DNA from: Luteirhabdus pelagi
GTDB lineage: Bacteria; Bacteroidota; Bacteroidia; Flavobacteriales; Flavobacteriaceae
Assembly: GCF_016827595.1 (NCBI RefSeq)
Contig: NZ_JAECMS010000003.1
Span: 62,001-126,000 of the forward strand
Direction of reading: 5' to 3'
DNA: 64,000 bases
Shown here: piece by piece, positions 21,717 through 30,340 of the stretch
Numbering within the stretch: position 1 is the first letter of the stretch
Layout of the letters: each line of letters begins with the position of its first letter
The notes under the pieces: model-generated
What the model saw: the letters and a program-made list of their open reading frames with translations, nothing else
The model's database searches: none
Told to the model about the DNA's origin: nothing
Position numbers and translations under genes: made by a program

Positions 21717-22811
21717 ATGAAAGCAGGTATCGTCGGCTTACCAAACGTTGGAAAATCAACACTCTTTAACTGTCTCTCTAATGCGAAGGCGCAGAGTGCC
21801 AATTTCCCTTTCTGTACTATTGAACCAAACATCGGCGTCGTAAACGTTCCCGATCATCGTTTGGTGAAGTTGGAAGAATTGGTAAATCCACAACGAGTAT
21901 TACCGGCTACGGTTGAAATCGTCGATATTGCCGGTTTGGTGAAAGGTGCCAGCAAAGGTGAAGGATTGGGGAATCAATTTCTTGGAAATATCCGCGAAAC
22001 CGACGCGATTCTTCATGTATTGCGCTGTTTCGACAATGATAATGTGGTACATGTTGATGGTAATGTGAATCCTGTTCGTGATAAGGAAACTATCGATATT
22101 GAACTTCAATTGAAAGATTTGGAAACCACCGAAAAGCGTCTCGATAAAGTGAAACGCGCTGCTCGGACAGGCGATAAGGATGCACAAAAGGAAGAGGCTG
22201 CATTAATAAAGGTGAAGAAAGGATTAGAGGAAGGAAAGTCGGTACGGGCTATCGAAGTAACCGATGCGGAACGCGAAGAGTATATCGATCGTATGCAATA
22301 TATCACCGATAAGCCAGTAATGTACGTATGCAATGTAGATGAAGGGTCCGCTGCTTCCGGAAATGAATATGTTGAAAAGGTAAAAGAAGCTGTAAAGGAT
22401 GAGAATGCCGAGGTATTGGTCCTTGCCGTGGGTACAGAAGCCGATATTACTGAATTGGACACCTACGAGGAGCGACAGATGTTCTTGGAAGATTTAGGTC
22501 TAGAGGAACCGGGCTCAGCCAAGTTGATTCGTGGGGCTTACTCGCTATTAAACCTACAAACCTACTTTACCGCTGGAGAGAAGGAAGTCCGTGCATGGAC
22601 CATTCCGGTTGGTGCTACCGCTCCTGAAGCGGCAGGTGTTATCCATTCCGATTTTGAAGCAGGTTTTATCCGTGCGGAAGTAATCAAATACGATGATTAT
22701 GTTCAGTATGGAAGCGAAGCCAAAGTACGTGAAGCTGGAAAGCTATCGGTAGAAGGGAAGGAGTATGTCGTAAAGGATGGCGATGTCATGCATTTCCGAT
22801 TTAATGTGTAA
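21717..22811 (+). CDS. ychF: redox-regulated ATPase YchF
   Basis: The 364-residue Obg-family P-loop protein binds and hydrolyses ATP rather than GTP and associates with ribosomes. The P-loop is GLPNVGKST (residues 7-15), with switch regions PFCTIEPNIGVV and DIAGLVKGASKGEGLGNQFL. The nucleotide-specificity motif is the NxxE-type NVDE, a YchF trait (in place of NKxD). A helical insertion and the C-terminal TGS-like domain (about 279-362, with TYFTAGEKEVRAWTI and FEAGFIRAEVI) are present. Length is normal. Monocistronic, with convergent PAP2 gene downstream. Confidence 0.97.
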   Translation: MKAGIVGLPNVGKSTLFNCLSNAKAQSANFPFCTIEPNIGVVNVPDHRLVKLEELVNPQRVLPATVEIVDIAGLVKGASKGEGLGNQFLGNIRETDAILHVLRCFDNDNVVHVDGNVNPVRDKETIDIELQLKDLETTEKRLDKVKRAARTGDKDAQKEEAALIKVKKGLEEGKSVRAIEVTDAEREEYIDRMQYITDKPVMYVCNVDEGSAASGNEYVEKVKEAVKDENAEVLVLAVGTEADITELDTYEERQMFLEDLGLEEPGSAKLIRGAYSLLNLQTYFTAGEKEVRAWTIPVGATAPEAAGVIHSDFEAGFIRAEVIKYDDYVQYGSEAKVREAGKLSVEGKEYVVKDGDVMHFRFNV

Positions 22812-22850: not shown

Positions 22851-22875
22851 GGACACTGAGGCTCTCGAAGTGTCC
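22851..22875 (-). repeat. REP-like palindrome, copy 1
   Basis: Arms GGACACT (22851-22857) and AGTGTCC (22869-22875) enclose an 11-nt loop that reads TCGAGAGCCTC on the minus strand. A second copy at 29871-29895 has the loop TCGAGAACCTC and arms changed at two paired positions. It lies between the convergent ychF and PAP2 genes. A T run is missing, so a plain terminator is less likely. Confidence 0.65.
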
Positions 22876-22878
22876 AGA

Positions 22879-23736
22879 TTAAAACGTAAACCGAACGGCC
22901 ATCGCACTGTATTCATCGCCAAGATAGGTTCTTCCTCCTGTTGGGTATACACTAAAGGAATCATTTTCAACCTTGTGTAGCTCGGGTACAAAATATCCTA
23001 CTGCAGCCCCAAGTCCATAACCTAACAATACATCAGTCAAGAAATGCTGACCTGCTTGTAGTCTAAAATACCCTACTGTTGCTGGAATTGTCGCAGCTCC
23101 AGTCCAAATCCAAAACTTTCCATTCACATCCGGATTGAAGTCGGTAAACACCTTTGCAGTGAAGAATGTCGCGGTCGCAGCAGCTGCTACATGACCCGAA
23201 TAAAAAGACCGTTGACCATTATTACTAGTTCTTCTCGATAGAGAAGTATCACCACTTTCATCGTATACATAGGGTCGAGAGCGATTTACAAAAGCAGCTG
23301 TCATAGTATAAAGGGAAGCAGTGGTAGCTAAGCTCTCTAAGTAAAGTCCACCAATTTGAGCTGAGTGATCATTAGCTTCATCGTCGAACAACAATGCCAG
23401 GGGAGTGGCAAAAGAAAGTGCAAAAGGAATATCGCTTATCTTATTAGCATCCTCAGAGTGATTTCCTGCCACCCAACGATCTAAAAAGTTTATATCGTCT
23501 TTATTGGCAATTTCCTGTTGTAACTCAGCTTCGGTAATATCATCCTTTTCCGTTATGAAATAAAGTCCAAGTCCGCTAACGGCAATGCCACCGCCGGTCC
23601 AGATGCCATCGCGCACCCAATCCCATTCGTATGGGGAAATGGATGATTCTTGTTTAAATGAAGAGGTAGTAGACTCTTGAGCAAAAGAAAATTGTGTAAT
23701 AAATACTACGGCTAGGGTGCTAAAAATTTTTTTCAT
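22879..23736 (-). CDS. PAP2 superfamily phosphatase
   Basis: The 285-residue protein has a signal peptide (residues 1-19) and the three phosphatase motifs of the PAP2/type 2 phosphatidic acid phosphatase family: NRSRP (151-155), YSGH (179-182) and R225-x5-H231-x3-D235 in FRLQAGQHFLTD. It probably removes phosphate from lipid phosphates such as undecaprenyl or phosphatidic acid phosphates at the periplasmic face or outer membrane. The terminal strand (YSAMAVRFTF) hints at an outer-membrane beta segment. Convergent with ychF. Confidence 0.88.
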   Translation of the reverse strand: MKKIFSTLAVVFITQFSFAQESTTSSFKQESSISPYEWDWVRDGIWTGGGIAVSGLGLYFITEKDDITEAELQQEIANKDDINFLDRWVAGNHSEDANKISDIPFALSFATPLALLFDDEANDHSAQIGGLYLESLATTASLYTMTAAFVNRSRPYVYDESGDTSLSRRTSNNGQRSFYSGHVAAAATATFFTAKVFTDFNPDVNGKFWIWTGAATIPATVGYFRLQAGQHFLTDVLLGYGLGAAVGYFVPELHKVENDSFSVYPTGGRTYLGDEYSAMAVRFTF

Positions 23737-27140: not shown

Positions 27141-29861
27141 ATGAGTGACGAACTCGATAATAACGAAGAACAAAATCCAGAGGATATCGACCACCAGAAC
27201 CAAGAGAGTGGCGATGTCGAAAATGCCGATAACAGCGAAACCATCACCAAGGTTACGGGTATGTATCGTGACTGGTTCTTGGATTATGCTAGTTATGTAA
27301 TTCTAGAACGTGCCGTTCCCGCAATCGAAGACGGTTTTAAGCCTGTTCAGCGTCGTATCATGCATTCCATGAAAGACTTGGACGATGGGCGCTACAACAA
27401 GGTTGCAAACATTGTTGGACATACCATGCAATACCACCCTCACGGCGATGCCAGTATTGCCGATGCGATGGTGCAGATGGGGCAAAAGGATTTGCTTATC
27501 GATACCCAGGGAAACTGGGGAAATGTGCTTACCGGCGATAGTGCAGCAGCGTCACGATATATCGAAGCGAGGCTCTCCAAGTTTGCGCTGGATGTTGTTT
27601 TTAACCCAAAAATTACCGAATGGCAAGCGAGTTACGACGGACGAAAGAAAGAGCCGATCAATCTTCCCGTCATGTTCCCACTTTTGTTGGCGCAGGGAGC
27701 AGAAGGAATTGCCGTGGGACTTTCAACCAAGGTGTTGCCCCATAACTTTATCGAGTTGATCGATGCCTCTGTCAAGCACCTGAAAGGGAAACGCTTCACA
27801 CTCTTACCCGATTTCCCAACGGGTGGCATCATGGATGCTACCGATTACAAGGATGGCGTTCGCGGGGGTAAGATTCGAAGTCGCGCCCGGATTAATCAAC
27901 AGGATCGGAATACGCTTGTTATCAATGAAATTCCCTTTGGAACGACCACTTCATCCCTAATCGATTCCATTCTTAAGGCAAATGAGAAGGGGAAGATCAA
28001 AATCAAGCAAATTGAAGACAATACTGCTGCCGAGGTCGAGATTTTAGTGCATATTCCAAGTGGGATATCACCTGATAAGACTATTGATGCGCTGTATGCC
28101 TTCACCAATTGTGAAACGTCAATTTCACCATTAGGCTGTGTTATTGAAGACAACAAGCCGCTTTTTGTTGGTGTTTCTGAAATGCTTCGCAGAAGTACCG
28201 ATCGTACGGTCGATTTGCTGAAACAGGAACTGGAGATCAGGCTCGATGAACTTGAAGCCCAATGGCACTTCGCTTCACTGGAACGCATCTTTATCGAAAA
28301 TAGAATCTATCGCGATATTGAAGAGGAAGAAACCTGGGAAGGCGTGATCGCTGCGATCGATAAAGGGTTGAAACCACATATCAAGCATTTGAAACGTGCG
28401 GTAACGGAAGAGGATATCGTGCGATTGACCGAAATTCGAATCAAGCGTATTTCAAAATTCGATATCGACAAGGCCCAACAAAAGATTGAAGCATTAGAGG
28501 ATCAGATTGCAGAGATTAAGCATCATTTAGAAAACCTGATTGAATATGCCATTGCCTATTTCAAAAGGTTGAAGAAGGATTACGGGGCAGGGAAGGAGCG
28601 CAAAACTGAAATTCGGGTTTTCGATGATATTGAAGCGACCAAAGTGGTTATCCGCAACACCAAACTTTATGTAAATAGGGAAGAAGGCTTTATCGGAACC
28701 AGTTTGCGTCGCGATGAGTATGTTACCGATTGTAGTGATATCGATGATATTATTGTGTTCACGGAAGACGGTACTATGATGGTTACCAAAGTCGACAGTA
28801 AAACCTTTATCGGTAAAGGTATTATCCATGTAGCGGTCTTTAAAAAGAAAGACAAGCGCACGATTTACAATATGATCTATCGCTTCGGGAAGAGCGGACC
28901 GACCTATGTGAAACGTTTTGCAGTAACGTCTATTACCCGCGACCGTGAGTATAGTCTTACGAAGGACGCAAAAGGAAGTAAAGTATTGTATTTTACAGCG
29001 AATCCTAACGGTGAAGCGGAAGTCGTAACGGTATTACTGCGACAAAAAGGAAATATAAAGAAATTGAAATTCGACCTCGATTTTGCCGATCAAATGGTGA
29101 AGGGGAGAGGTGCAAAAGGGAATATCGTCACCAAACACCCCGTAAAGCGAGTCGAATTAAAGGAAAAAGGACTTTCTACCCTAAAACCACGCAAAATCTG
29201 GTTCGATGAAACCGTACAACGCCTAAATCTAGATGGTAGAGGTGAATTGCTTGGTGAATTTAGAAGTGAAGACCGCTTGCTCATTGTGAAGCAAGATGGA
29301 ACCGTGAAAACGGTAGTTCCGGAAATGACGCTTCGTTTTGATGATGACATTATCATTTTAGAAAAATGGGAGCCTAAAAAACCGCTTTCAGCTATCTATT
29401 GGGAAGGTGAAAAGGAATTGTTTTATGTGAAACGATTCCTGATTGAAAATCCAGATAAGGAGGAGTTGATTATTACCGATCATTCCGATTCCTATCTGGA
29501 GCGAATCTTCACCGATTATCGACCCGTAGCCGAAGTAGTCTTCGTAAAGAAACGTGGAAAGGAGCGTGAAGAGAACCTGGAGGTTAACCTTGAAGAGTTT
29601 ATCGCAGTGAAAGGCATCACGGCAATGGGAAATCAATTGACAAAAGAAAAGGTTTTGGAAATCAACGCCTTGGCATCGCTTCCTTATGAGCCGCCAGAAG
29701 AAAAGAATGCTGAGGATATGGATGTGGTAGATGAAGAGGATGTTTCTTCAGAAGAAGACAATGACTCCTCCGATACTGATGATGATGCAATTCGAAGCAG
29801 TTCTGATGAAGATACCGGTGGTGAAGCATCCGGTGGAGAGGGACAAACAAGTTTATTTTAA
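27141..29861 (+). CDS. parC: DNA topoisomerase IV subunit A (ParC)
   Basis: The 906-residue subunit carries the DNA-cleaving winged-helix domain: QRRIMHSMKD, VVGHT-like IVGHTMQYHPHGD, and the catalytic Tyr in DSAAASRYIEARLSKF. A coiled-coil tower (about residues 420-480) and a beta-pinwheel C-terminal region follow. The last ~60 residues are a disordered, acidic/serine tail (DEEDVSSEEDNDSSDTDDD) that ends exactly in GQTSLF. It cuts and reseals both DNA strands together with ParE. Operon parE-parC, with mscL 50 nt downstream across a REP-like palindrome. Confidence 0.95.
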   Translation: MSDELDNNEEQNPEDIDHQNQESGDVENADNSETITKVTGMYRDWFLDYASYVILERAVPAIEDGFKPVQRRIMHSMKDLDDGRYNKVANIVGHTMQYHPHGDASIADAMVQMGQKDLLIDTQGNWGNVLTGDSAAASRYIEARLSKFALDVVFNPKITEWQASYDGRKKEPINLPVMFPLLLAQGAEGIAVGLSTKVLPHNFIELIDASVKHLKGKRFTLLPDFPTGGIMDATDYKDGVRGGKIRSRARINQQDRNTLVINEIPFGTTTSSLIDSILKANEKGKIKIKQIEDNTAAEVEILVHIPSGISPDKTIDALYAFTNCETSISPLGCVIEDNKPLFVGVSEMLRRSTDRTVDLLKQELEIRLDELEAQWHFASLERIFIENRIYRDIEEEETWEGVIAAIDKGLKPHIKHLKRAVTEEDIVRLTEIRIKRISKFDIDKAQQKIEALEDQIAEIKHHLENLIEYAIAYFKRLKKDYGAGKERKTEIRVFDDIEATKVVIRNTKLYVNREEGFIGTSLRRDEYVTDCSDIDDIIVFTEDGTMMVTKVDSKTFIGKGIIHVAVFKKKDKRTIYNMIYRFGKSGPTYVKRFAVTSITRDREYSLTKDAKGSKVLYFTANPNGEAEVVTVLLRQKGNIKKLKFDLDFADQMVKGRGAKGNIVTKHPVKRVELKEKGLSTLKPRKIWFDETVQRLNLDGRGELLGEFRSEDRLLIVKQDGTVKTVVPEMTLRFDDDIIILEKWEPKKPLSAIYWEGEKELFYVKRFLIENPDKEELIITDHSDSYLERIFTDYRPVAEVVFVKKRGKEREENLEVNLEEFIAVKGITAMGNQLTKEKVLEINALASLPYEPPEEKNAEDMDVVDEEDVSSEEDNDSSDTDDDAIRSSSDEDTGGEASGGEGQTSLF

Positions 29862-29870
29862 TAAGTAAGT

Positions 29871-29895
29871 GGTGACTTCGAGAACCTCAGTCACC
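29871..29895 (+). repeat. REP-like palindrome, copy 2
   Basis: Arms GGTGACT (29871-29877) and AGTCACC (29889-29895) enclose the loop TCGAGAACCTC. It shares 10 of 11 loop bases with copy 1 (22851-22875, opposite strand), while both arms changed together. Confidence 0.65.
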
Positions 29896-29911: not shown

Positions 29912-30340
29912 ATGGCAGGATTAATCCAAGAGTTTAAGAATTTTGCGGTCAAGGGTAACATGATCGATATGGCGGTGGGTATTATTATCGGAACCGCCTT
30001 CAATAATGTGGTGAATACCTTGGTGAAAAAGGTAGTCATGCCACCACTTTCCCTGATGACCGATGATGTTAATTTGGCGGAACGAAAGTATGTTCTAAAA
30101 GAAGCAACGGAAACAAATTCGGAAGTAGCAATAGGATACGGAGAATTACTTGAAGTAATGGTCGATTTCCTAGTTATTGCCTTTACAATTTTCGTGGTTA
30201 TAAAAGTGATTAACCGTTATAAACGCAAAGCCGAGGATCCAAAGAACAAAACAGTCGAAACCCCAAAGGATATCGAACTGCTATCGAATATCGAGCGCTT
30301 GATGGAAGAGCAAAACAGCATGCTCAAAAACAGACAGTAG
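29912..30340 (+). CDS. mscL: large-conductance mechanosensitive channel MscL
   Basis: The 142-residue inner-membrane channel opens under membrane tension during hypo-osmotic shock. The N-terminus EFKNFAVKGNMIDMAVGIII leads into TM1 (GIIIGTAFNNVVNTLVKKVVMPP, the pore-lining helix), a short periplasmic loop follows, and TM2 is DFLVIAFTIFVVIKVINRY, then a charged cytoplasmic helix. It ends 2 nt before the convergent TerB-like gene. Confidence 0.97.
   Translation: MAGLIQEFKNFAVKGNMIDMAVGIIIGTAFNNVVNTLVKKVVMPPLSLMTDDVNLAERKYVLKEATETNSEVAIGYGELLEVMVDFLVIAFTIFVVIKVINRYKRKAEDPKNKTVETPKDIELLSNIERLMEEQNSMLKNRQ

Follow-up and report, generated by a model that had tools for sequence, protein, structure and literature searches.

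Dispersed bulged hairpins of Luteirhabdus pelagi as probable recognition sites of a single-domain GIY-YIG endonuclease

Known systems and the two hairpins of the window

In Neisseria, a site-specific single-strand nuclease of the GIY-YIG type, Ssn, was reportedly described in Nature Communications in 2025 along with a repeat named NTS. Ssn with NTS would be the nearest known kind to the system presented here, the likeness being a single-domain GIY-YIG protein and a short repeat in many genomic copies; both were found in this study, with the cognate repeat lying at the nuclease gene as well as dispersed in the genome. The differences are that the present repeat is a hairpin whose arms are free and covary and whose tip defines its class, that its copies are spread over several phyla and stand on both sides of the gene, and that its cutting is here presumed. 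Proteins of the UPF0213/YazA type (1zg2, 1ywl) have the same domain by sequence (E 5.5e-20), but the yazA copy analysed in Bacillus lacks flanking hairpins and overlaps with the genes next to it.

A second point of comparison is the REP/RAYT system, in which, according to PMC6006769 and PMC3733652, short extragenic bulged palindromes are dispersed, form inverted doublets and flank their partner gene. The repeat studied here is likewise a short imperfect palindrome with a bulge, many extragenic copies, inverted doublets (REPIN/BIME) and a flanked partner gene, but the partner is a GIY-YIG protein and not the HUH Y1 transposase of those sources. No GTAG or CGTC tag was found at the foot of the hairpin; of the flanking bases counted, an ACC is conserved, and this on the 3' side alone.

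The window, that is, the whole stretch of 64,000 nucleotides that was analysed, contains two perfect hairpins of 25 nt, which belong to the so-called GARC class:

22851..22875, minus strand: hairpin copy 1, GARC class, with arms GGACACT/AGTGTCC, bulge TC, inner stem GAG/CTC and tip AGC
22858..22868, minus strand: conserved core TCGAGAGCCTC of copy 1, (nearly) invariant across 15 copies of the own genome
29871..29895, plus strand: hairpin copy 2, GARC class, with arms GGTGACT/AGTCACC and tip AAC
29878..29888, plus strand: conserved core TCGAGAACCTC of copy 2, (nearly) invariant across the same 15 copies

In full, copy 1 reads GGACACT-TCGAGAGCCTC-AGTGTCC on the minus strand and copy 2 reads GGTGACT-TCGAGAACCTC-AGTCACC on the plus strand. 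The sequence bears out the original prediction that the two loops agree at 10 of 11 positions and that the arms differ at two positions, each compensated on the partner arm, as well as the opposite orientation of the copies, an arrangement that is also common as inverted pairs in other genomes. A paired 25-mer pattern in which the inner arm bases were left free matched the two copies and nothing else in the window, with 0 matches expected from 100 shuffles. Both copies are predicted to fold as single strands into (((((((..(((...)))))))))) at -5.6 kcal/mol (z of -3.1 and -2.6), in which seven pairs form the outer stem, TC stays unpaired and a GAG/CTC inner stem carries a three-base ARC tip, so that what had been taken as a loop would be a bulged TC plus a short stem with an ARC tip. 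The two copies also lie, as had been claimed, just past gene ends, both after stop codons: copy 1 follows the stop of a plus-strand ORF (21717-22811) and faces the 3' end of a minus-strand ORF (22879-23736) that converges on it, and copy 2 is between the ORFs 27141-29861 and 29912-30340.

The hairpin family in the own genome and in other taxa

The search of the own genome (3.39 Mb in 57 contigs) detected 11 copies of the 15-mer CTTCGAGARCCTCAG, and 16 exact copies of the TTCGAGARCCTCAG core, or 20 at up to one mismatch, whereas the reversed-letter controls gave 0 in both cases. The dispersed family of REP-like palindromes that had been predicted does therefore exist, and it is restricted neither to the two window copies nor to this species. 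Arms such as GGACACT, GGTGGCT, GGTTACT, GGTTGCT and GTTGGCT were found with matching partners; in 15 own copies (13 distinct) 93.8% of the cells were paired, both sides being changed in 5 pairs, and the covariation score was 0.344 versus 0.140 after shuffling (0 of 500 as high) and at most 0.095 when slid. Further pair types among these 15 copies (seven) showed no excess over the shuffles. Copies with a C..G tip and paired arms are also present in this genome.

In the sample of 299 genomes of the family, the 15-mer was found in 18, and a scan of named genome contigs gave at least 117 stretches that contain it. The taxa among the matches listed comprise Bacteroidota, Treponema, Leptospiraceae, Desulfobotulus and Limnohabitans, plus a few MAGs whose labels (Planctomycetota, Actinomycetota and Chlorobiaceae) may be wrong. 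The inner two arm bases were complementary in 129 of 142 copies among the matches listed, retrieved with a pattern that, of the two arms, contained the 3' one alone, as against a mean of 30.8 and a maximum of 48 in 2000 shuffles, which together with the covariation in the own genome supports the earlier proposal that the hairpin is kept by compensatory changes. The 3' ACC is more conserved in the flank counts than its partner GGT, so pairing accounts for part of the conservation but not for all of it.

The tip marks the class of a hairpin. It follows the pattern TTCGA-S-NN(N)-S'-CTC, where S is the complement of S', and GAGC, GAAC, GGGC and GTGC tips can be told apart from CAAG, CAGG, CTCCG and CTACG ones. 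In a set selected by protein, with these letters left free, S and S' were complementary in 145 of 154 hairpins (G..C 50, C..G 53, C...G 42). The degenerate motif reached up to 284 matches in one of 20 genomes, compared with 8 control matches in the same genome, and inverted doublets around 40-80 bp apart were detected in several genomes.

Some copies have particular surroundings. One (L052 and L022, at about 1501) is kept in both sister species around 230-250 bp upstream of tmRNA (from 1740 and 1760), inside a longer palindrome context, GGCATCC..GATACAGCGG, that recurs in L059; a search of eight loci against Rfam returned nothing except tmRNA, in two of them. In Desulfobotulus, a 44-bp-spaced hairpin array with its first copy inverted lies between two AAA-ATPase_like genes (L095 1546-2128, with further arrays). 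As a general partner, AAA-ATPase_like (PF09820) was discarded, its profile having matched only three frames in two loci.

A small GIY-YIG gene bracketed by hairpins

Clustering of the ORFs near hairpins, over the 117 loci among the matches listed, yielded a small GIY-YIG protein in 7 of them. The own genome contains such a gene:

contig C11 of the own genome, about 421.66-422.30 kb: nuclease cassette, in the order hairpin, 110-aa GIY-YIG gene, hairpin cores
contig C11 of the own genome, 421771-422103: single-domain GIY-YIG gene, 110 aa

Residues 1-73 of the 92 aa searched, out of the 110 of the whole protein, match Pfam GIY-YIG (PF01541) with E 4.9e-18. Six hairpin cores at 21-bp spacing follow the gene on its 3' side, and then two more; its stop codon falls within the first downstream hairpin, an overlap present in only 2 of 41 genes and hence not general.

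A first GIY-YIG profile gave 28 matches, spread over 27 loci of which several repeat a single place, and each match had hairpins within 400 bp. As these loci had been selected by the hairpin, the reverse, protein-first test was made with a profile of 11 proteins (A1), itself seeded from hairpin-flanked genes, which, with E values up to 1e-6 accepted, matched 203 of the 299 sampled family genomes. The flanks analysed came from 30 loci, 40 more listed places, and genes from genomes mostly chosen for hairpins. Hairpin density was 1.59/kb within 300 bp of the nuclease genes versus 0.058/kb beyond 500 bp (157 hairpins near 115 gene matches, over 98.6 kb in all, 10 in 173.8 kb far from them, and 4 near with the reversed pattern), in counts that include repeats, namely a split gene (L333) and places entered twice (L283/L385, L299/L386).

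The counts per gene exclude two of these repeats (L385 and the first L386 gene). Among 73 GIY-YIG genes from genomes of the window's family, chosen by protein similarity (at least 75 bits), 63 had a hairpin of the first or of a second type within 300 bp, as did 83 of 95 genes in a wider set. This second type, GTCA-S-TTCGAGTG-variable arms-GTATCGAGAA-S, is borne by most genes without the first. At low-scoring GIY-YIG matches the first type was present in only 1 of 16. Neither type was found at 10 of the 73 family genes, which counts against the nuclease as partner; among the genes of this sort, L291 is flanked on both sides by a TTCGGCTACGCTC variant, and L288 and L299 by other hairpins. Canonical hairpins were on both sides in 34 of the 47 genes having them, the nearest upstream copy being minus-oriented in 28 of 39 cases and the nearest downstream copy plus-oriented in 32 of 42, with median distances to the gene of 59 bp upstream and 34 bp downstream. 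Of 27 hairpin-bearing genomes, 6 gave no A1-type match, among them that of a Flavobacterium cauense isolate, and this also counts against the association.

In viral contigs, 40 pattern matches of profile A1 gave 0 confirmed cases. Plasmid records with a protein match numbered 31, and the flanks were examined in six: a Sphingomonas gene has the TTCGACTTCGCTC type, with two copies 5' and one 3'; Sinorhizobium and Spirosoma genes (L396, L398) are flanked on either side by hairpins of other kinds (ATTCCTGTG..CACAGGAAT and GTCATCC..GGATGAC); a Methylobacterium gene has one small stem; and the Planktothrix and Bacillus yazA genes have no flanking hairpins. Among the matches listed in the literature search, no paper joined GIY-YIG with such repeats by title or abstract.

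The class of the hairpin follows the clade of the nuclease. On a tree of 94 proteins (78 labelled with one of four classes, 16 unlabelled for having no hairpin or a tie), the class changes 9 times, as compared with a shuffled mean of 36.0 and with 0 of 200 shuffles as low. With only 6 of 91 forks starred (few resolved) and 53 of 91 open, the clustering is to be trusted but not the branching order, and near-copies favour any clustering. As the shape of the tip varies in step with the enzyme family, the nuclease, and not the transposase that had been expected, is the likely partner of the hairpin.

The sister species, a member of the Flavobacteriaceae, is Thermobacterium salinum TK19130 (named Luteirhabdus salina in NCBI), as 3243 bases of its contig are identical to the record of that name, and it shows turnover of the copies. 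At the place of window copy 2 its hairpin is kept, with identical arms and one tip change from A to G, and at the place of copy 1 (L277) a C-class hairpin is found instead, with a nested CCTGCCTGCCGGCAGGCAGG palindrome in its tip. The C11 cassette is absent, in such a way that 658 bp with nuclease and hairpins correspond to 70 bp in the sister (contig C12), where a nested C-class hairpin remains. When ten own loci were compared with ten sister loci, three shared a hairpin at the orthologous place, one was the replaced site of copy 1, and six matched none of the ten; one of these six is the cassette, and the other five were judged against the ten compared sister loci alone. The sister retains 11 copies while having no top-tier nuclease, a further point against the nuclease.

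Alternative origins and the proposed mechanism

The link to a RAYT that had been put forward did not hold, and we consider the production of these repeats by such a transposase close to refuted, although they resemble REPs in size, in being palindromic and bulged, and in having scattered copies and inverted pairs. The only Y1_Tnp ORF of the own genome (contig C22, L012 1474-2946) encodes a RAYT-like protein of 490 aa fused in frame to a HemF-type coproporphyrinogen III oxidase domain, and is paired with a different repeat, three AGACCC..GGGTCT hairpins around and inside the ORF. A Y1_Tnp match is missing in 8 of the 18 hairpin-positive genomes of the family and in 6 of 20 others; these six include three assemblies of Treponema, whose 189-284 motif matches are the most among the 20. 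A cognate Y1_Tnp gene flanked by the present hairpin was found neither in the own genome, nor in the hairpin genomes, nor at 54 scanned RAYT loci, one of which (L248) does have a GARC inverted pair around 400 bp away. It is equally improbable that the copies are transcription terminators or mRNA-end hairpins that share a good loop by chance. Both window copies come after stop codons and 57% of the hairpins are outside ORFs, versus 14% of random positions, but the T-tract is absent at both window copies, as originally noted, and the GC-rich hairpin followed by a T-run of an intrinsic terminator is thus not present. Moreover, 49 of 410 flanks had a TTTT no farther than 12 nt from the arms, versus 3146 of 31200 random places, the gene geometry of the intergenic copies is about that of random intergenic positions (tandem 0.64 and 0.63), and bracketing of the nuclease would be left unexplained.

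It is unlikely that the sole role of the bracketing hairpins is to regulate the nuclease gene or to shield it, without their being targeted by the enzyme: closeness to the gene agrees with such a role, but many copies, including both of the window, are distant from any such gene, and the hairpin class tracks the nuclease clade. A possible though rather doubtful alternative is a role like that of Ssn with NTS but without mobility, where a GIY-YIG single-strand nuclease would trim incoming DNA at the hairpins during natural transformation, and the repeats would spread by ordinary recombination and selection. The same association data between nuclease and hairpin speak for it, whereas the sharing of only 3 of 10 own loci with the sister and the presence or absence of the whole cassette between species suggest mobile elements.

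The explanation that we consider probable is that the hairpins serve a single-domain GIY-YIG endonuclease as dispersed recognition sites, being non-autonomous copies that resemble REPs in form without a RAYT having made them. The autonomous unit would be the nuclease gene bracketed by hairpins. The hairpin would form once the DNA becomes single-stranded, on the lagging strand, during repair or in imported DNA, and the nuclease would bind it by reading the conserved bulged tip TTCGA-S-NN-S'-CTC, the arms being needed merely as a stem. A nick in the single strand at the hairpin tip could then be followed by repair or recombination that copies or swaps hairpins between sites, in such a way that cutting would drive their dispersal.

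In a broader and more tentative version, a large bacterial class of REP-like repeats, including the TTCGACAAGCTCAG and TTCGACTACGCTCAG types, might be made or maintained not by RAYTs but by GIY-YIG nucleases travelling in cassettes that hairpins bracket; each nuclease clade would read its own tip class, so that nuclease and hairpin would diversify together, as an enzyme does with its homing site. If the proposed explanation is true, REP-like repeats would gain a second, RAYT-independent source, which would account for hairpins in genomes that lack RAYTs, and the way in which nuclease clades and hairpin classes are paired in nature would provide a ready specificity code for small single-strand nucleases.
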